Source: Candidatus Electrothrix communis
GTDB taxonomy: Bacteria; Desulfobacterota; Desulfobulbia; Desulfobulbales; Desulfobulbaceae
Reading direction: 5' to 3'
Assembly: GCA_030644725.1 (NCBI GenBank)
Contig: CP130629.1
Coordinates: 1,295,572-1,359,571, forward strand
Length of the DNA stretch: 64,000 bases
Shown here: piece after piece, positions 3,670 to 14,826 of the stretch
Position numbering within the stretch: position 1 is the stretch's first letter
Layout: each line of letters begins with the position of its first letter
The notes under the pieces: generated by a model
What the model was told of the DNA's origin: nothing
The model's database searches: none
The model's input: the letters and a program-made list of their open reading frames with translations, nothing else
Made by a program: the position numbers and the translations under genes

Positions 3670-4785
3670 TTAACTGATATGCTCCAAGGCAATTTTCAGC
3701 ATCCGACGAACCGGCTCAGCAGCACCCCAGAGTAACTGGTCACCAACGCTGAAGGCACTCAGATACTGCTCGCCCAGATTCATCTTGCGCAGACGTCCTA
3801 CTGGGATATCAAGCGTTTGGGTAACACGGGTAGGGGTCAACTTATTGATCGTCTCTTCCTTGGTATTGGCGACCAGGTAGACCCACTCATTATGTCCGGC
3901 AATAGCCTTTTCAATATCAGCTAAGGGAATATCCTGATTTAGCTTGATGGTGAAAGCCTGACTGTGGCAACGCATGGAACCGACCCGGACACAACAACCA
4001 TCAATAGGAATCTGATTTTCAGTATATCCGAGGATTTTATTGGTCTCAGCGATTCCCTTCCATTCTTCGCGGGTCTGGCCATTGTCCATAGCCCGATCAA
4101 TCCAAGGAATAAGACTCGCTGCCAAAGGCGCGCCAAATTGCTTTGTCAAAAAGCGAGGACTGCGGATGGTCTCTGTGACGTTTTTGTCGATCTCCTGCAC
4201 GACCTCATTATCGTCCAGCAGGTTCTGGGCATTCTCACCAATCAGGCGCATCTGCTCTACCAGCTCAATCATATTCTTGGCCCCGGCTCCAGACGCTGCC
4301 TGATAGGTCTGGGAGGTGATCCATTCTACCCAACCCCTTTCAAACAGACCGGCCAGGGCCATCAACATGAGAGAGACAGTGCAGTTGCCGCCGATATAAT
4401 CTTTAATCCCGTCGGCCAGCCCCTGATCAATGATTTTACGGTTCACCGGATCCAGAACAATGATAGAATCCTCTGCCATACGCAGGGTCGAAGCAGCATC
4501 AAGCCAATACCCTTCCCAGCCCTCACCCCGCAACTTTGGATGGATATCCGAGGTGTACTCACCACCCTGACAGGAGAGCAGAATATCGGTTTCCTTCAGC
4601 AGGTTCAGATCATGGGCATCAAGCAGTTCATAGGTGGTGCCGTTGATCTCAGGCCCCTCCTGACCTGCCTGGGAAGTGGAGAAAAACAGAGGCTCAATGT
4701 TCTTGAAATCATCCTCTTCACGCATGCGCTCCATGAGCACGGATCCGACCATGCCTCGCCAACCGATTATACCGACTTTTTTCAT
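3670..4785 (-). CDS. asd: Aspartate-semialdehyde dehydrogenase
   Basis: 371 residues, the normal length for the Gram-negative-type enzyme that reduces L-aspartyl-4-phosphate to L-aspartate 4-semialdehyde, the branch to lysine/diaminopimelate, threonine and methionine. The N-terminal VGIIGWRGMVGSVLMERM is the NADPH-binding loop. The catalytic cysteine is Cys135 in GGNCTVSLM; Gln162 (TYQAASGAG), Arg267 and His274 (RVGSMRCHSQAF) sit where the family's substrate-binding and acid-base residues are expected. The C-terminal PVGRLRKMNLG and VGDQLLWGAAEP are also typical. It is the last of a minus-strand run leuB-prs-asd; 127 bp separate it from prs. Confidence 0.97.
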   Translation of the reverse strand: MKKVGIIGWRGMVGSVLMERMREEDDFKNIEPLFFSTSQAGQEGPEINGTTYELLDAHDLNLLKETDILLSCQGGEYTSDIHPKLRGEGWEGYWLDAASTLRMAEDSIIVLDPVNRKIIDQGLADGIKDYIGGNCTVSLMLMALAGLFERGWVEWITSQTYQAASGAGAKNMIELVEQMRLIGENAQNLLDDNEVVQEIDKNVTETIRSPRFLTKQFGAPLAASLIPWIDRAMDNGQTREEWKGIAETNKILGYTENQIPIDGCCVRVGSMRCHSQAFTIKLNQDIPLADIEKAIAGHNEWVYLVANTKEETINKLTPTRVTQTLDIPVGRLRKMNLGEQYLSAFSVGDQLLWGAAEPVRRMLKIALEHIS

Positions 4786-8037: not shown

Positions 8038-9414
8038 TCACAAATCGGCATTGCTTGATTCCACCTTCGTCACCTCGCACTCCAGCCGTCCCTGATAGAG
8101 CAACACCTCAATGGGCTCTCCAATGCACACCTGGCCTGCTGCCGAGATCAAAGTTCTGTGGCCTGAGACTTTCCTGGACACAGAGTAGCCACGTGCGAGC
8201 GTAGACAGCGGGCTTACCGCCTCCAGCACCCCTGCTGCTCGGGCAAGTTCCTGTTCCTTATCGCTGATAAGCCTGATACCGATCTGGCGAAGCCGTCGTT
8301 GCATCTCCTCAATCCGTTGATGATAGAGGTTGAGCACCAGCAAGGGGTTGTTCCGTTTGAGGCGATTTTCCACCCGGTCTAGGCGGGCCTGAAGAGTAGT
8401 CAAATTCGCCTGCATAGCATGCTCCATATTTTCGGACATATGGTCCAAACGGAGAAGCAAGGTATCAACAGGCTGGGCAGCACCGGTCAGCTTTTGCCGA
8501 TACAGGGCTATCCGCTCCTGATGACGATCCAGTTTATCCTGCATGGTCCGGCGCAATCGACGGGCCTGATCAGCAAGATGCTCGCGCAGAGCCTGGCTGT
8601 CCGGCAACAGCATCTCAGCGGCCCCGCTGGGGGTGGGCGCACGAAGATCGGCCACCAGATCGGCAATGGTAAAGTCGATTTCATGGCCCACAGCACTGAC
8701 CACCGGGATGACTGACCTGTGGATCTCCCAAGCCAGTTCTTCATTATTAAAGGCCTGCAAATCCTCAGCAGAACCGCCGCCCCGGCAGAGGATAATCGCG
8801 TCTGCTGCCAGCCGTCCTGCGGCCTGCTGAAGATTAATCTCCGACACAGCCTGACACAACTCTTTTGCTGCATGCTCTCCCTGCACTGCTGCCGGATAAA
8901 CCGAAATCCGTACCTGCGGGTATCTCTTCTGGGCAATGCGGATGAAATCATGGATCGCAGCACCCGAGGGCGAGGTCACGAGGATCAGGTGCTCGGGTAG
9001 AGGCGGAATCGGCTTTTTCAGCTCCTGATCAAAGAGCCCTTCAGCGTCCAGCCTTTTTTTCAGCTGCTCAAAGGCGAGCTGCAAAGTACCTTCTCCATGA
9101 TAATCCAAGCTGTCGATGATGAGCTGGTAATCGCCCCTAGGCTCGTACACGGAAACTCTGCCCAGACAAATCACCATATCGCCGTCATTAGGCAGCTGTT
9201 GCAAATATCGCTGCTGCATCTTGAAAAGCACAGCCTTGATCTGAGCCTGATCGTCCTTGAGGGTGAAGTATAGATGACCGGAGCCCGGTCGCCGCAGGCC
9301 GGAAATCTCCCCGGCAACGCTGATAAAGGAGAAGCGGCCCTCCAGCATGCCCTTGATGGAGCGGGTCAGCTCGGAGACGCTGAAGACTTTTTGTTGGGTG
9401 GTTTGAGGGAGCAT
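8038..9414 (-). CDS. xseA: Exodeoxyribonuclease VII large subunit
   Basis: 458 residues. Catalytic subunit of the single-strand DNA exonuclease VII. N-terminal OB-fold (residues about 8-105; FSVSELTRSIKGMLEGRF, GSGHLYFTLKDD), the catalytic XseA domain with LVTSPSGAAIHDF, the LCRGGGSAEDLQAFN motif and VSAVGHEIDFTIADLVAD RAPTPS region, then a long helical coiled-coil arm (about 270-400) and a C-terminal strand segment. No xseB (small subunit) is adjacent. Upstream of its start lies the 231-bp tandem repeat. Confidence 0.96.
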   Translation of the reverse strand: MLPQTTQQKVFSVSELTRSIKGMLEGRFSFISVAGEISGLRRPGSGHLYFTLKDDQAQIKAVLFKMQQRYLQQLPNDGDMVICLGRVSVYEPRGDYQLIIDSLDYHGEGTLQLAFEQLKKRLDAEGLFDQELKKPIPPLPEHLILVTSPSGAAIHDFIRIAQKRYPQVRISVYPAAVQGEHAAKELCQAVSEINLQQAAGRLAADAIILCRGGGSAEDLQAFNNEELAWEIHRSVIPVVSAVGHEIDFTIADLVADLRAPTPSGAAEMLLPDSQALREHLADQARRLRRTMQDKLDRHQERIALYRQKLTGAAQPVDTLLLRLDHMSENMEHAMQANLTTLQARLDRVENRLKRNNPLLVLNLYHQRIEEMQRRLRQIGIRLISDKEQELARAAGVLEAVSPLSTLARGYSVSRKVSGHRTLISAAGQVCIGEPIEVLLYQGRLECEVTKVESSNADL

Positions 9415-9441
9415 GATGAAAAGAATATTACTCAGGGTGTT

Positions 9442-9949
9442 ATGGTGGTGTCGTTATTATTGTAGGGGTAGGTCCCTGTGCCTACCCGGTTTCATGTGCC
9501 CGGATATTCAGGGCAGACACATAGGTCTGCACCCTACAACAGGCCAGCGGGTACCGATACCCCAAAGGGGTTATATTTATCAGCTCGGGGTAACACCCCG
9601 AGAAAACGGACGGGATACACTACGGACTCAGGGTGTTACCCTGAGCTGGTTAGATATAGCCCCCGTTGGAGCATGGTGGTGTCGTTATTATTGTAGGGGT
9701 AGGTCCCTGTGCCTACCCGGTTTCGTGTGCCCGGATATTCAGGGCAGACACATAGGTCTGCACCCTACAACAGGCCAGCGGGTACCGATACCCCAAAGGG
9801 GTTATATTTATCAGCTCGGGGTAACACCCCGAGAAAACGGACGGGATACACTACGGACTCAGGGTGTTACCCTGAGCTGGTTAGATATAGCCCCCGTTGG
9901 AGCATGGTGGTGTCGTTATTATTGTAGGGGTAGGTCCCTGTGCCTACCC
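9442..9949. repeat. 231-bp tandem repeat, 2.2 copies, built of two nested palindromes
   Basis: Copies at 9442-9672 and 9673-9903 are almost identical (a visible A/G change near 9494/9725) and a third starts at 9904 and breaks off near 9949. Each unit holds a TGTAGGGG...CCCTACA element (9461-9538, 9692-9769) and a second inverted repeat in which GGGGTTATATTTATCAGCTC pairs imperfectly with a downstream GAGCTGGTTAGATATAGCCCC. Because 231 is divisible by 3, all frames repeat in phase and a long plus-strand reading frame results, which I regard as not coding. Confidence 0.9.
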
Positions 9950-10069
9950 ATTTTCGTTCTTGGCAACAAACCCAAAACCGTTTTATATAAATCACGGATT
10001 GAATCGCAGATTTACATAAAATTTATACTTCCAAAAATAACGGCAACATATGCTGATCAGGCGGAAAAA

Positions 10070-11125
10070 CTACCTCTTCCCCCCCATCTCCCGATACACC
10101 AACAAGGGAGACACCAGCACCCTCGGATACCGACAGGTCCGCACCATCTGCTCAAACCCTTCAAAGCCACGAAAAACGCTACGGAACCCACGCTCAACCG
10201 CTTCCTTGCTCGATAAATCGCCGCCCAGAAATTCCTGATGAGGATTAAACAGCGCATCCTCTGGATTAGGAACCGAGCTGACGATACCGAGCATGGTCAG
10301 CTCTTCGGTGGGGACCGAACCATAGGTGAAGTGAAAGGCAGAGACATCCATATCAAAGAAGTTTTCCTGCTTCAAATGCCCGAAAACCTGCACTGCCATT
10401 TGCTCTTGGGAGGGATAGATCCGCAAATTAATAATGCCAGGAATGAAGGTGTCAATCCAGCTCTTCAAGCCATCTAAAATCCACTGTTCAACCACTCCGG
10501 CCTTGGTGTAGTTTTCCAGCAGATCCATCAGCTTTTTCTTCTGCTCTTTGAGCGGAGCCTGTTGAATATTGCGGGCATTCCTATCCTTTATCTTGGCTAT
10601 CTCTGCTTCTCTGACCTTGATCTGCTCCACAAGCTCTTTGTAGGCATCCGTGCTTTTCACTGCCGCCTTGTTGCTCTGATTAATCAATGCCGCAATATCG
10701 GGGAACGAATCAGAAATCTTCTTCATTCGCTCGTAATGCTCAATAACGCATCGCCCTGTTACCTTGACACAGAAGGTATTTTTTAAGGTCTTACGAAACT
10801 CCTTATCCTGAATCTTTTCCGCCATTCCTGTGCCGGACAAGTCAACCATATGCCCCTGATTGCTCAGCTCTTCTTCCAGCTCCTGAAACAGGGCATGGTG
10901 GGGTTTGACCTGCTCCTGTGCCCCCTGCCCCTCCTGACCCGCGCTGGCAGAATCGTTTTTAAATATTTTAAAATCGTATTTTTTCTTATTCTCCGCCGGA
11001 TTGACGGTTGCGTACGTGGACTCTCCGGCAGAAACAACAGCGCCGGTCAGTTGATTGTACACGGAAAGAATTTTCTTGGTGTCCACGTAGAGATAATCGC
11101 AGAGAGACATGTTCTTCTTTTTCAT
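10070..11125 (-). CDS. Cytoplasmic protein of unknown function, DUF6414-like
   Basis: 351 residues, no signal peptide and no membrane span. It opens with CDYLYVDTKKILSVYNQLTG, a pattern I associate with proteins annotated DUF6414 (a tyrosine/aspartate-rich start followed by a helical middle); that link is from memory and should be treated as tentative. A predicted coiled-coil stretch runs around residues 150-200 (VEQIKVREAEIAKIKDRNA). The C-terminal third looks globular (NFFDMDVSAFHFTYGSVPTEELTMLG is near residue 265). Monocistronic, convergent with the tandem repeat. No ribosome site stronger than the GGATATCC-flanked purine run upstream. Confidence 0.6.
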   Translation of the reverse strand: MKKKNMSLCDYLYVDTKKILSVYNQLTGAVVSAGESTYATVNPAENKKKYDFKIFKNDSASAGQEGQGAQEQVKPHHALFQELEEELSNQGHMVDLSGTGMAEKIQDKEFRKTLKNTFCVKVTGRCVIEHYERMKKISDSFPDIAALINQSNKAAVKSTDAYKELVEQIKVREAEIAKIKDRNARNIQQAPLKEQKKKLMDLLENYTKAGVVEQWILDGLKSWIDTFIPGIINLRIYPSQEQMAVQVFGHLKQENFFDMDVSAFHFTYGSVPTEELTMLGIVSSVPNPEDALFNPHQEFLGGDLSSKEAVERGFRSVFRGFEGFEQMVRTCRYPRVLVSPLLVYREMGGKR

Positions 11126-11491
11126 TGGATATCCTTATAGAGTTCTGTCATTATGCGCTGCACATTATATTGTCAGGTGTTTTAAATTTCGGATGCATTC
11201 CCTTTCCGCCGCCATCTACTATAGAAAGAAAATCCCTGTGTTCGCCCTTGTTCCCCGAGAGCACGCCGAATTTATGAATCTTTTTACATACCAAAGACCG
11301 TAACAGCCTGTCAAGCTGAAGTCAGCAGCTCTTCGCAAAAGACAAAGAAAAGGAGAGGCTTGACACGACTGCAACAGAAAGGTATTTTTCATTATCAACT
11401 TCCTTGTATTCAGAGGTGGCTCCATATTGCACCCGTACGTACCTGTACCACTCTGTTTTCATCAGACCACAGCAATGTACTGACAAAAAAA
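11126..11491. other. Intergenic region before the DUF1538 pair
   Basis: 366 bp between divergent genes. It must hold the promoters of both; no convincing -35/-10 pair or ribosome site was found. The reading frame of the downstream gene is open from 11360, but those extra residues look unlike the family. Confidence 0.35.
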
Positions 11492-12223
11492 ATGCTTCTC
11501 ACCGCCCTGAAAAAACTCTGGTCCGCCTTTACCGACCTGCTGCCCATTGTCCTGGTTATCAGCTTTTTCCAGCTGATTGTGTTGCGGCAACCTCTGCCTA
11601 ATCTTATTGAGGTCCTGTTCGGGGCTATGCTGGTGGTGGTTGGCTTGGCTCTCTTTGTCCAGGGCCTGGAAATGGGGCTTTTTCCCATCGGTGAAAGCCT
11701 GGCTCAAGCCTTGGCCCGCAAAGGCAGTCTGCTCTGGCTGTTGGTCTTTGCCTTTGCTTTGGGCTTTGCCACCACGGTGGCAGAGCCTGCCCTGATTGCA
11801 GTGGCTGATGAGGCGGCAGAAATCGCGGCCAAGGGGGGACTCATTGAGGCTGGTGAACAGGCTGCCCAACAATACGCCCTTGGTCTCCGCCTGTCTGTGG
11901 CCTTTTCCGTGGGCCTTGCCATTCTCATCGGAGTGTTGCGTATCTTGCGGGGCTGGCCGGTCCATTATCTCATCATCGGCGGGTATGTCCTGGTTATGCT
12001 GATGACCATGATAGCACCCAAGGAGATTATCGGCCTGGCCTATGATGCAGGCGGCGTCACCACCTCCACCATCACGGTGCCTCTGGTCGCCGCTCTCGGG
12101 GTGGGGCTGGCCTCCATTATCCGGGGCAGGAATCCCCTACTGGACGGCTTTGGCCTTATCGCCTTTGCCTCCCTGCTGCCCATAATTTTTGTCATGGGCT
12201 ATGGCCTACTGGTTTTTCACTGA
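11492..12223 (+). CDS. DUF1538 membrane protein, first subunit (UmpA-like)
   Basis: About 243 residues from the ATG at 11492 ([20 protein letters not shown]); the open frame extends to 11360 but upstream residues are not family-like. Six or so transmembrane segments with the family's repeated signatures: [65 protein letters not shown] and [17 protein letters not shown]1538 pair from Halomonas (UmpAB) has been reported, as I recall, to act as a two-component Na+(K+,Li+)/H+ antiporter. The second subunit starts 12 bp downstream, followed by PII and CBS regulators. The transport role here is inference from the family. Confidence 0.85.
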
Positions 12224-12235
12224 GAAGGATTGCCT

Positions 12236-13036
12236 ATGGATTTCTTTATCGATTTTGCAGACATTCTCCTCCTCACCCTGCGTGATGTCACCCCGATTGT
12301 GGGCCTGATTATCGGCTTCCAGCTCCTGGTCATCCGGCAGCCTGTTCCTCATCCCAAACGACTCATCCTCGGCGGAATTTATGTAGTGCTCGGCCTGTCT
12401 CTCTTTCTCATCGGCCTGGAAAAAGCCCTGTTTCCCCTGGGCAAAATGATGGCTACCCAGCTTTCTGACCCGCATTTTCTCTACGGTACCGAGACCATGC
12501 CTGCAACACCGGACTGGCTAGCCTACGGCTGGATCTATCTTTTTGCCGCCATGATCGGCTTTGCCACCACCATTGCCGAACCCTCATTAATCGCGGTTGC
12601 CTATAAGGCCAACGAGGTCTCCGGCGGGACCATCAGCCAATGGGGCTTACGAATAACGGTAGCTGTCGGGGTGGCCTTCGGCATCAGCCTGGGCACCTTC
12701 CGCATTGTCAGCGGAACCCCGCTGTATCTTTATATTTTAACAGGTTATATCATCGTCATCATTCAGACCCTCTTTGCCCCGAAAAATATTATACCCTTGG
12801 CCTATGACTCAGGCGGAGTCACCACCTCCACAGTGACTGTGCCCCTGGTAGCCGCTTTGGGGTTGGGGCTGGCCTCCACGGTGCCGGGTCGTAACCCTGC
12901 TCTGGACGGCTTCGGGCTGATCGCTTTTGCCAGCCTCTTCCCAATTATCACCGTCCTTGGTTATGCTCAATTCGGACAATGGATGACCGCAAGGCGAAGA
13001 AAGAAAGAAAACAAGGAGAACGAACATGTTGTTTAA
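12236..13036 (+). CDS. DUF1538 membrane protein, second subunit (UmpB-like)
   Basis: 266 residues starting at ATG 12236, chosen because the GAGAAGGA ribosome site lies 6 bases ahead (an upstream TTG at 12230 would leave no spacing). Same fold as the first subunit: FQLLVIRQPVPHPKRLILGG, GLEKALFPLGKMM, GFATTIAEPSLIAVA, LAYDSGGVTTSTVTVPLVAA and [20 protein letters not shown]. The conserved T-T-x-A-E-P and [10 protein letters not shown] motifs in membrane helices are candidate ion-path residues. Its last 11 bases overlap the PII-like gene, implying translational coupling and joint function. Confidence 0.87.
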   Translation: MDFFIDFADILLLTLRDVTPIVGLIIGFQLLVIRQPVPHPKRLILGGIYVVLGLSLFLIGLEKALFPLGKMMATQLSDPHFLYGTETMPATPDWLAYGWIYLFAAMIGFATTIAEPSLIAVAYKANEVSGGTISQWGLRITVAVGVAFGISLGTFRIVSGTPLYLYILTGYIIVIIQTLFAPKNIIPLAYDSGGVTTSTVTVPLVAALGLGLASTVPGRNPALDGFGLIAFASLFPIITVLGYAQFGQWMTARRRKKENKENEHVV

Positions 13037-13373
13037 AACGATTATCGCCTCGGTAAAACCCGATCACACCGACAAAGTCGTAGATGCGGCCAAAAATGCC
13101 GGGGCCACCGGGGCCACCATCCTTTCCGGTCGGGGCACAGGCTGTCACGAGGCCAAGACCTTTTTCGGCCTGACCTTAGAGCCCCAGAGCGATATTATCA
13201 TGATGCTGATTGAAGAGCATCTGGTCCAAGGAATTTTGGATGCCATTGTTGAGGCCGGAGAATTCAACAAGCCCGGAACCGGCATGGCCTTTGTTTTGCC
13301 TGTGGAGCAGGTCGTTGGCCTGGATAGTCAACTTGATATCATTAAAGAAAAAATACAGGATCAGTATTTTTAG
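13026..13373 (+). CDS. PII-like signalling protein
   Basis: 115 residues with the ferredoxin-like PII pattern: FKTIIASVKPDHTDKVVDAA, GATGATILSGRGTG, a short T-loop region around FFGLTLEPQSD without the uridylylatable tyrosine context, and GTGMAFVLPVEQVVGL at the C-terminal strand. It is not a canonical GlnB/GlnK: the GKIGDGKIF loop is replaced by NKPGTGMAF. Overlaps the DUF1538 gene by 11 bp. PII proteins typically bind nucleotides and gate a membrane partner, as GlnK gates AmtB; by analogy this one may regulate the DUF1538 transporter. Trimeric cytoplasmic protein by family. Confidence 0.85.
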   Translation: MLFKTIIASVKPDHTDKVVDAAKNAGATGATILSGRGTGCHEAKTFFGLTLEPQSDIIMMLIEEHLVQGILDAIVEAGEFNKPGTGMAFVLPVEQVVGLDSQLDIIKEKIQDQYF

Positions 13374-13386
13374 AGATACCCCTTCA

Positions 13387-13450
13387 TCCCGCCCCCTGGG
13401 GCGGGACAACAAAATATAAAAACTGGGTTAGGTGACTCCAAGGAGTCGCC
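13387..13450 (+). other. Two hairpins between the PII-like and CBS genes
   Basis: TCCCGCCCC (13387-13395) pairs with GGGGCGGGA (13398-13406), and GGTGACTCC (13431-13439) pairs with GGAGTCGCC (13442-13450) with one G-T. No T run follows on the plus strand, so they look like mRNA processing or attenuating structures rather than terminators. Confidence 0.5.
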
Positions 13451-13498
13451 CGGTACTTTCATATAAAAAAATTGAGAAACAAAGAAGAGAGAAAAAAA

Positions 13499-13900
13499 AT
13501 GGCAACACAAGGAACAATCATTCGGGCACGAGATGTGATGCGGACAAAGTTGGCCACCATCGACGGCATGGCCACAGTCAGGGAAGCAGCAAATAAGATG
13601 CGGGAGCAACACCTCTCCCACCTACTGGTGGAAAGAAGAAATGCAGACGATGTTTGGGCCATCGTTTCTATCCGAGATCTGGTGGAAGGCGTACTGATCC
13701 CGGACCGCCCTGCTGAAGATGTCAATGTCTTTGAAGTCATGACCAAGCCGGTGATCACCGTTCCACCGGACATGGATATCCGCTATGTAGCCCGGTTGCT
13801 CCATAATACCGGCCTGAGCAGAGTGCCGGTGGAGGAAAACAACGAGTTGATCGGCATCATTTCCCTTTCCTCGCTGATCCTGCATGAATCGGTTTTTTGA
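13499..13900 (+). CDS. Tandem CBS-domain protein
   Basis: 133 residues from the ATG at 13499 (MATQGTIIRARDVM), which follows a GAAGAGAG ribosome site; the frame is open 27 bases further up. Two CBS motifs form one Bateman module: about residues 8-60 (RDVMRTKLATIDGMATVREAA ... VSIRDLVEGVL) and 73-130 (FEVMTKPVITVPPDMDIRYVA ... GIISLSSLILHE). Such modules bind adenine nucleotides or related ligands and usually control a linked transporter or enzyme. As the fourth gene after two DUF1538 proteins and a PII-like protein, it is probably a second regulator of the same transporter. Confidence 0.88.
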   Translation: MATQGTIIRARDVMRTKLATIDGMATVREAANKMREQHLSHLLVERRNADDVWAIVSIRDLVEGVLIPDRPAEDVNVFEVMTKPVITVPPDMDIRYVARLLHNTGLSRVPVEENNELIGIISLSSLILHESVF

Positions 13901-13932: not shown

Positions 13933-14826
13933 TTATCCCGGCCTGCCGAAGATCTTCGGCACAGTATAGGGAACCTGAAGGTATTCCAGCACCTTCCCTG
14001 TCTTATGGTACTTATACTGATGAAAGAGCCGGGAAAAATTAAAGGATATCCCGAAATAAACGCGGCGTTCCTGATCTGATTCAGATGTATCATACCCCCG
14101 GGTGCAATATCCTGCATGCAGTTCCGCCCATTGCAGCCAGGAATGTTGCAGTTGATCAAAACCATCAAGCTTGACAACTACGGCATAGTACATATTTGAG
14201 TAATCATCAAAAATTCCTTGCACAGGGACATTCAAGGCATATTCAACACGAAAATCTATCTTGCGATCCAGTTCCGGGTATTGCTCCATGAGCATGCTGG
14301 TTAATGCCCCGAGCGTATTCATTGTCATATCGCCCCAATCAAACCCCTGGGCTTGGCTGGTTCCGTCATCAAGCTCCATGATTGCCTGGACGGCCCAGGA
14401 CGAAAACACACCGAAGCGACCAGCTGTTTTCCTGTCATATCCCCAATGATTGTACAGGCCGGTAAAGGCATCGGCAATGGCATACGTCGCCCAAAAATGA
14501 CCGGCTTTATCCGCACCTCCATATTTTGAGCCTTTTTCAAACCAACCTTCGTCAGTAACATGAAAACTTTCTGAACCGTAATCCCAATCAGCCATCCCGT
14601 AGAGGCTAATAAAGGCTGCTGCGGAAATATTGGTGTACAGGGCCTTTTTCTCCTTAGAAAGCTCACCCCACCACCCACCCTGCGGTTCCATGCCTGCTTG
14701 CTCAACATCGGTATAATTCTGTGGCGAATACTGTGGAGCATTCTGTAGATCTCCACTACATGCCGGAGAGATAAAAATGACCATGACAGCAAAGAAGATA
14801 ATCAGGATATTGAAGTATTTTTTCAT
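13933..14826 (-). CDS. YfiM/DUF2279-like envelope protein
   Basis: 297 residues with an N-terminal signal sequence (MKKYFNILIIFFAVMVIFIS) ending in SPAC at Cys23, an imperfect lipobox, so it may be a lipoprotein. The core fits the DUF2279/YfiM pattern: GGADKAGHFWATYAIADAF, an AGRFG-FSSWAVQAIMELDDG segment and FDWGDMTMNTLGALTSML. The C-terminal half (about 190-297) has alternating strands rich in Tyr (YYAVVVKLDG, RVYFGISFNFSRLF), which could be a small beta-structure. Function of the family is unknown; predicted outer-membrane or periplasmic. Convergent with the CBS gene, 32 bp apart. Confidence 0.75.
   Translation of the reverse strand: MKKYFNILIIFFAVMVIFISPACSGDLQNAPQYSPQNYTDVEQAGMEPQGGWWGELSKEKKALYTNISAAAFISLYGMADWDYGSESFHVTDEGWFEKGSKYGGADKAGHFWATYAIADAFTGLYNHWGYDRKTAGRFGVFSSWAVQAIMELDDGTSQAQGFDWGDMTMNTLGALTSMLMEQYPELDRKIDFRVEYALNVPVQGIFDDYSNMYYAVVVKLDGFDQLQHSWLQWAELHAGYCTRGYDTSESDQERRVYFGISFNFSRLFHQYKYHKTGKVLEYLQVPYTVPKIFGRPG

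Follow-up and report, generated by a model that had tools for sequence, protein, structure and literature searches.

Four genes in Candidatus Electrothrix communis, two for membrane proteins of the DUF1538 family, one for a PII-like protein and one for a protein with paired CBS domains, raise the question of whether the PII-like and CBS proteins regulate the membrane pair beside which they are encoded. An earlier note on the 64,000-nucleotide window (the whole stretch of DNA that was analysed) had read them as one transcription unit encoding a cation/proton antiporter under the control of two nucleotide sensors, and had suggested that two hairpins might set the dose of the CBS protein. The antiporter part of that prediction has a counterpart in the literature: the one assayed DUF1538 member that we found, UmpAB of Halomonas zhaodongensis, is reported as a heterodimeric Na+(Li+, K+)/H+ antiporter (PMC5484666), and by analogy antiport may be expected of the pair studied here, referred to below as UmpA and UmpB. 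In one study, DUF1538 also ranked in the top 20 Pfam families for the prediction of growth pH (PMC13255231). For cable bacteria, UmpAB homologs have been noted in saltwater species (PMC10030654) and listed as a possible salinity adaptation (PMC10030654, PMC12093952), in papers whose main texts mention neither PII nor CBS.

All four open reading frames described in the earlier note were recovered (Table 1). UmpA and UmpB scored 232.7 and 226.4 bits against DUF1538 (PF07556, gathering cut-off 22.6), the PII-like protein 46.5 bits against Pfam P-II (cut-off 25) and the CBS protein 88.8 bits against Pfam CBS (cut-off 24), the last in two CBS stretches, in keeping with the Bateman module proposed earlier. 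The umpA and umpB genes are spaced by 12 bp, and the PII-like gene does overlap umpB by the 11 bp previously claimed (13026–13036). Both neighbours, a DUF6414 gene at 10073–11125 and a DUF2279 gene at 13936–14826, lie on the opposite strand, so the four genes stand alone. The promoter-like site before umpA is weak, since the region holds six such sites where shuffles predict 2.5. The genome, a single contig of 4.85 Mb, was found to hold one DUF1538 pair and six PII matches, of which the PII-like protein of the unit scores lowest. The nearest named relative at the locus is the cable bacterium Ca. Electrothrix gigas, with 90% identity in UmpA. A tandem repeat with a period of ~231 bp and near-identical 77-aa units was also observed at 9413–10216; the open reading frame that carries it reaches into the end of the DUF6414 gene.

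Table 1. Features of the four-gene unit in Ca. Electrothrix communis (positions within the window).
Feature	Position	Strand	Description
Promoter-like site TTGACA-17-TATTTT	11360..11388	+	5' of umpA, 10/12 consensus matches
umpA-like gene	11492..12223	+	DUF1538, 243 aa, 7 predicted TM helices
umpB-like gene	12236..13036	+	DUF1538, 266 aa, K/R-rich tail
PII-like gene	13026..13373	+	115 aa, short T-loop, B-loop PGTGM replacing GDGK
Dispersed ~85-bp double-hairpin repeat, one copy	13385..13471	+	Between PII and CBS genes
CBS-pair (Bateman) gene	13499..13900	+	133 aa

To assess conservation of the unit, we searched the best 80 relatives listed from named genomes with profiles of the proteins from the window. 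Two DUF1538 genes followed by a PII gene were present in 77 of these 80, an order far beyond chance, and the remaining three loci (L027, L040, L065) are contig ends. The CBS gene was present in 66 of the 80. Six of the 14 loci without it end at a contig edge (the three above and L043, L044 and L085, whose contigs stop just past the PII gene), and eight lack it where enough sequence follows. No CBS protein of this type (E ≤ 1e-12) was found in any of ten whole genomes without one beside PII (the eight, L043 and L085), several of which are MAGs and may be incomplete; the same search recovered the protein in two genomes carrying it. The CBS protein is an optional component of DUF1538 systems. Gene overlaps, counted with script-chosen starts in loci having all the starts needed, were found between umpA and umpB in 12 of 75 loci, between umpB and PII in 23 of 75 (20 of these by exactly 8 bp) and between PII and CBS, by 1 bp, in 31 of 64. 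Between the genes, distance correlations ranged from 0.745 to 0.887 across 63 loci and show co-inheritance only. With order kept from Desulfobacterota to Gammaproteobacteria and Bacteroidota, and with overlaps frequent, comparative sequence data support the single co-directional unit that the earlier note had suggested.

The survey was then widened. DUF1538 turned up in 28 of 394 Desulfobacterota genomes, 59 of 292 from the order of Marinobacterium (L062; search with NF041627) and 8 of 198 from the phylum of a Bacteroidales MAG (L036). From these, 89 loci were sampled: the Desulfobacterota part came from 20 of the 28 genomes, and the order and phylum samples gave 62 and seven loci; L062, L036 and a 24-bit hit in G665 were left out. 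A system counted as complete if its DUF1538 score reached 300 bits and its downstream sequence 600 bp, by which 86 qualified among the 89 loci. A same-strand PII gene was located at most 1.6 kb downstream in 84 of these 86 systems, the sequences behind such locus counts being related and not independent; in the other two PII lies upstream, on the other strand in L225 and ahead of the split pair in L232. Several loci were set aside by the filter: L140 has little room downstream and a PII start, L220 and L145 end with the contig, L146 has PII with a single DUF1538 half, L147 has a partial DUF1538 without PII, and in L148, a 23-bit hit, no DUF1538 was found. One locus counted as complete, L137 (G256), has DUF1538 in several frames beside an intact PII gene, possibly reflecting decay or sequencing error.

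In the eight remaining Desulfobacterota genomes, including Ca. Electrothrix communis, PII adjoins DUF1538 by coordinates. Plasmid records with DUF1538, found by tblastn, had PII downstream in nine of nine cases (six Clostridia, three Alphaproteobacteria). All seven annotated plasmid records name this partner "P-II family nitrogen regulator", a label that probably misleads readers. In the reverse direction, all 18 PII-profile matches at E ≤ 1e-22 in the 394 Desulfobacterota genomes adjoin DUF1538. Because nearly every relative examined travels with a PII partner, these data suggest that the little-studied DUF1538 transporter family is switched by PII proteins.

The systems vary in how both partners are built. 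DUF1538 halves are split or fused, the fused open frames being 480–736 aa long, and PII occurs as one domain, as two genes, as two domains in one chain or as three in one chain. Among 84 systems, 52 have one PII domain, 22 have two and 10 have three; CBS accompanies 45 of the 52 single-PII systems and 1 of the 32 multi-PII systems. Locus L232, considered as a system with both CBS and multiple PII domains, proved to be a clustering artefact in which the second PII belongs to a neighbouring system. The triple-PII open frames span 374 to 567 aa. In eight triple chains the first, second and third domains cluster separately in the PII tree (88/96, 99/96 and 99/94), although the tree program flagged the first domains as long branches that may have been joined falsely. 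This clustering by position points to a triplication that is old and whose domains cannot replace one another. As PII proteins are trimers, the three-domain chain would most simply be a built-in trimer. Split and fused DUF1538 systems were also observed side by side in L196, L198 and L232, with PII near each.

The PII-like protein itself was predicted with a pLDDT of 80 and low confidence in the T-loop, and the best PDB matches of the model in Foldseek were PII structures (E 4.3e-8, TM about 0.65). Its T-loop is ~5 residues shorter than that of GlnB. We take the canonical GlnB/GlnK motifs to be Y[KR]G[AS][AE]Y in the T-loop and G[DE]G[KR] in the B-loop. The former was found in 0 of 209 DUF1538-linked domains compared with 12 of 12 canonical PII proteins, and the latter in 2 of 209 (both in the T-loop, none in the B-loop) compared with 12 of 12; GRQKG was missing from all 209. 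Of these domains, 76 come from the nearest 80 loci and 133 from those in the wider sample, a few of them being upstream or reverse-strand copies. Alignment and motif count both bear out the earlier description of a T-loop without the uridylylation-site motif. The B-loop of the nearest relatives reads PGTGIAF (G84 in 77, G86 in 79, I87 in 76 and A88 in 77 of 80) and is degenerate in some tandem and triple PII domains; a count of 191 of 209 for a hydrophobic B-loop pattern was set aside, since the pattern can match the T-loop too. Other residues are kept across the 80 rows, namely K44 (74), F46 (78), F47 (70), G48 (79), D56 (79), E63 (76), E64 (71), H65 (73) and Q102 (80). The lost motifs include GlnB residues that hold phosphate and 2-oxoglutarate. 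With the canonical motifs gone, the protein may not signal in the manner of GlnB.

In a PII tree of 120 rows and 98 columns, with bootstrap values unsettled, the DUF1538-linked domains (the PII-like protein of the unit among them), a sister group and L294, L295 and L305 were separated from GlnB, GlnK, NifI and L307 (97/85). The tree drew on 18 of the nearest 80 loci, 34 of the 89 in the wider sample and eight of the 11 with triple PII, and the linked domains were not recovered in it as one clade (three changes). The sister group consists of 105-aa PII-like proteins that are not near DUF1538. By eye, seven loci (L297 and L299–L304, at about position 4000) have a sister-group PII followed by a ~160-aa hydrophobic protein, for which three tested sequences gave no Pfam hit; this may be a second PII-partnered membrane system.

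The closest solved sequence to the CBS protein is CBS-CP12 (5nmu, E 6.4e-21). CBS-CP12 binds AMP, and by this likeness AMP is a lead only. The diadenylate cyclase family PF02457 was detected in 16 of 34 genomes searched, including Ca. Electrothrix communis, where c-di-AMP is a possible signal. Considered as a family-wide signal by analogy with DarA and DarB, c-di-AMP was rejected as unlikely because a cyclase match was absent from all 17 carrier genomes of the Marinobacterium order; PF02457 was also missing from one Desulfobacterota carrier (G312). The claim of two nucleotide sensors was not supported as worded: loss of the GlnB T-loop and the GDGK B-loop leaves the term unproven for the PII-like protein, and the CBS protein is optional.

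The 125-nt gap between the PII and CBS genes (13374–13498) folds at −37.7 kcal/mol (z −3.55), with none of 200 shuffles as low, so the two hairpins reported in the earlier note are real. A role as a conserved dosage element did not survive comparison. The segment 13385–13471 has 34 other matches in the genome, with up to 87% identity over most of its length, some of them short and a few in tandem, and the repeat is absent from Ca. Electrothrix gigas (L009), where the PII–CBS gap is 28 nt. No Rfam match was found for the gap; together with the dispersed copies and the absence in Ca. Electrothrix gigas, this led us to reject a conserved riboswitch or attenuator. The hairpin pair looks like an inserted REP-like repeat, which may affect CBS expression here and is not a feature of the family.

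UmpA and UmpB are 52% identical in alignment, and a model of the two as a single chain reached a pTM of 0.81 with a mean pLDDT of 81. In UmpA, lysine and arginine lie mainly on the N-terminal side in 76 of 76 sequences and in UmpB on the other side in 76 of 76, with loops taken from the model and sequences that are related rather than independent. In nine natural fusions (480–524 aa), 24–37 residues separate the two domain matches. The opposite charge asymmetry makes it probable that UmpA and UmpB lie antiparallel to each other as the halves of a single inverted-repeat transporter, and with an odd number of helices and nine fusions with linkers of this length, antiparallel halves would be the simplest arrangement. 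The N terminus of UmpA is probably inside and UmpB probably oriented oppositely, with its K/R-rich tail inside.

The modelled helices are broken at A97–E98 and at residues 190–194 (TTSTI) of UmpA and at the equivalent sites of UmpB. Two acids in each half, at or near these breaks, are invariant. E98 and D185 occur in all 157 A halves, and E115 and D191 in 156 of the 157 B halves, with a gap in the one other row. D185 and D191 are placed about one turn before the second break in the model. An alignment with UmpB-only rows was dropped, these rows having aligned onto the UmpA half, and a replacement alignment was used. Among the best 50 matches of the UmpAB model to solved folds in each search, none reached E ≤ 0.001 in Foldseek and Z was at most 4.2 in VIA-align. 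A bile-acid transporter fold appeared there with Z 3.0 among many unrelated ones, and UraA, NhaA and SbtA were unremarkable, although such folds could still apply.

We consider that the unit probably encodes a monovalent-cation/proton antiporter gated by a dedicated PII-like protein, with the CBS protein as an optional second input. UmpA (N terminus in) and UmpB (N terminus out), as homologous seven-helix halves, would form a heterodimer equivalent to an inverted-repeat transporter, with a conserved carboxylate pair at or near the broken helices of each half. The PII-like protein would be made beside UmpB through the gene overlap, and its trimer would sit on the cytoplasmic face and switch the transporter through the short T-loop. 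The CBS protein, likewise cytoplasmic, would probably read an adenine nucleotide. Extended to the whole DUF1538 family, the proposal becomes one of obligately PII-gated transporters with antiparallel seven-helix halves encoded by two genes or one, capped by a PII homotrimer from one gene that mostly comes with a CBS co-sensor, by two specialised PII domains or by a single-chain pseudo-trimer of three non-equivalent domains, with CBS and extra PII domains as alternative inputs and a ligand other than MgATP or 2-oxoglutarate; to this generalization we give slightly better than even credence.

One alternative reading draws on what PII proteins do elsewhere, which is mostly to gate uptake of nutrients or bicarbonate (Amt, SbtA). 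DUF1538 could accordingly be a PII-regulated carrier of another solute, such as an organic acid or bicarbonate, the Halomonas antiport being a side activity of overproduction in pump-deficient E. coli, and the weak fold hints, none significant, include glutamate, dicarboxylate and Na/Ca carriers. This is made unlikely by antiport having been measured with Na+, Li+ and K+ (PMC5484666) and by the occurrence of the cable-bacteria homologs in saltwater species (PMC10030654). As gene order denotes functional linkage, not contact, and could reflect co-regulation only, the PII-like and CBS proteins might instead be co-transcribed with the transporter and act elsewhere, for example on gene expression or an enzyme. 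However, PII accompanies the transporter in Desulfobacterota, Gammaproteobacteria, Bacteroidota, Clostridia and Alphaproteobacteria, and the link survives fusion of the transporter halves as well as duplication and fusion of PII domains, and we consider action elsewhere very improbable. The original proposal of an antiporter with two nucleotide sensors, and hairpins setting the CBS dose, gains from the fact that adenine nucleotides are frequent ligands of PII and CBS folds and from the likeness to CBS-CP12. It is rendered doubtful by the lost GDGK and T-loop motifs, by the 17 of 17 Marinobacterium-order carriers that lack the cyclase match seen in Ca. Electrothrix communis, by the ten of ten genomes in which no CBS relative replaces the one missing beside PII, and by the dispersed nature of the hairpin repeat.

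The PII-gated antiporter favoured here resembles several known systems in part. Halomonas zhaodongensis UmpAB likewise consists of paired DUF1538 genes with seven predicted helices each; its genes overlap by one base, whereas those here are apart, and it is described as two genes only, in a main text that mentions neither PII, P-II nor CBS and has no topology, inverted, antiparallel or symmetry wording (PMC5484666). It was assayed in E. coli as umpAB alone, from a cloned fragment whose last open reading frame is umpB (PMC5484666). Besides the single assayed member found and the lack of a solved fold resembling the model, the antiporter proposal has against it that UmpA and UmpB here fall below the NCBIfam equivalog cut-offs (374.9 bits against 490 for NF041627, 329.9 against 500 for NF041628); the NF041627 cut-off was passed by none of the 292 sampled genomes from the order of Marinobacterium. 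AmtB–GlnK and SbtA–SbtB are PII-gated transporters in which, as here, the transporter gene lies beside that of a PII-fold regulator. Their transporter families differ from DUF1538, and PII here is single, doubled or tripled and without the GlnB motifs.

In PII-NG, most members lie beside CzcA/RND metal pumps (PMC7726332), so that a PII-like protein again adjoins a proton-coupled transporter, although the neighbour here is DUF1538 and not an RND pump. Three RND-adjoining PII genes were present in our tree (L294, L295 and L307, which are not reference PII-NG sequences). L307 groups with GlnB and keeps GDGK, whereas L294 and L295 fall on the linked-PII side of the deep split, outside the linked group, on a branch that is not firm (97/70). 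DarA/PstA and DarB/CbpB of Firmicutes are c-di-AMP receptors and offer a further likeness, since they join a PII-like with a free-standing CBS-pair protein, both connected with ion balance; they differ in that the 17 Marinobacterium-order carriers had no diadenylate cyclase match and the CBS protein scored 14.3 bits against the CbpB model (cut-off 125).

A text search of open papers found none linking DUF1538 to PII; none of the five papers naming DUF1538 uses "P-II family nitrogen regulator", and no paper in the set searched combines PII-like, CBS domain and cation proton antiporter. New here are the DUF1538–PII link and its breadth, the series of one, two and three PII domains, the alternation with CBS and the proposed opposite orientation of the halves. 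The best-known role of PII proteins is to regulate the supply of nitrogen and carbon. If the proposal is correct, a whole family of ion antiporters would have its own PII regulator, the one assayed member that we found having been cloned as umpAB alone, and PII forms with one, two or three domains would amount to a natural experiment on how a PII trimer works.
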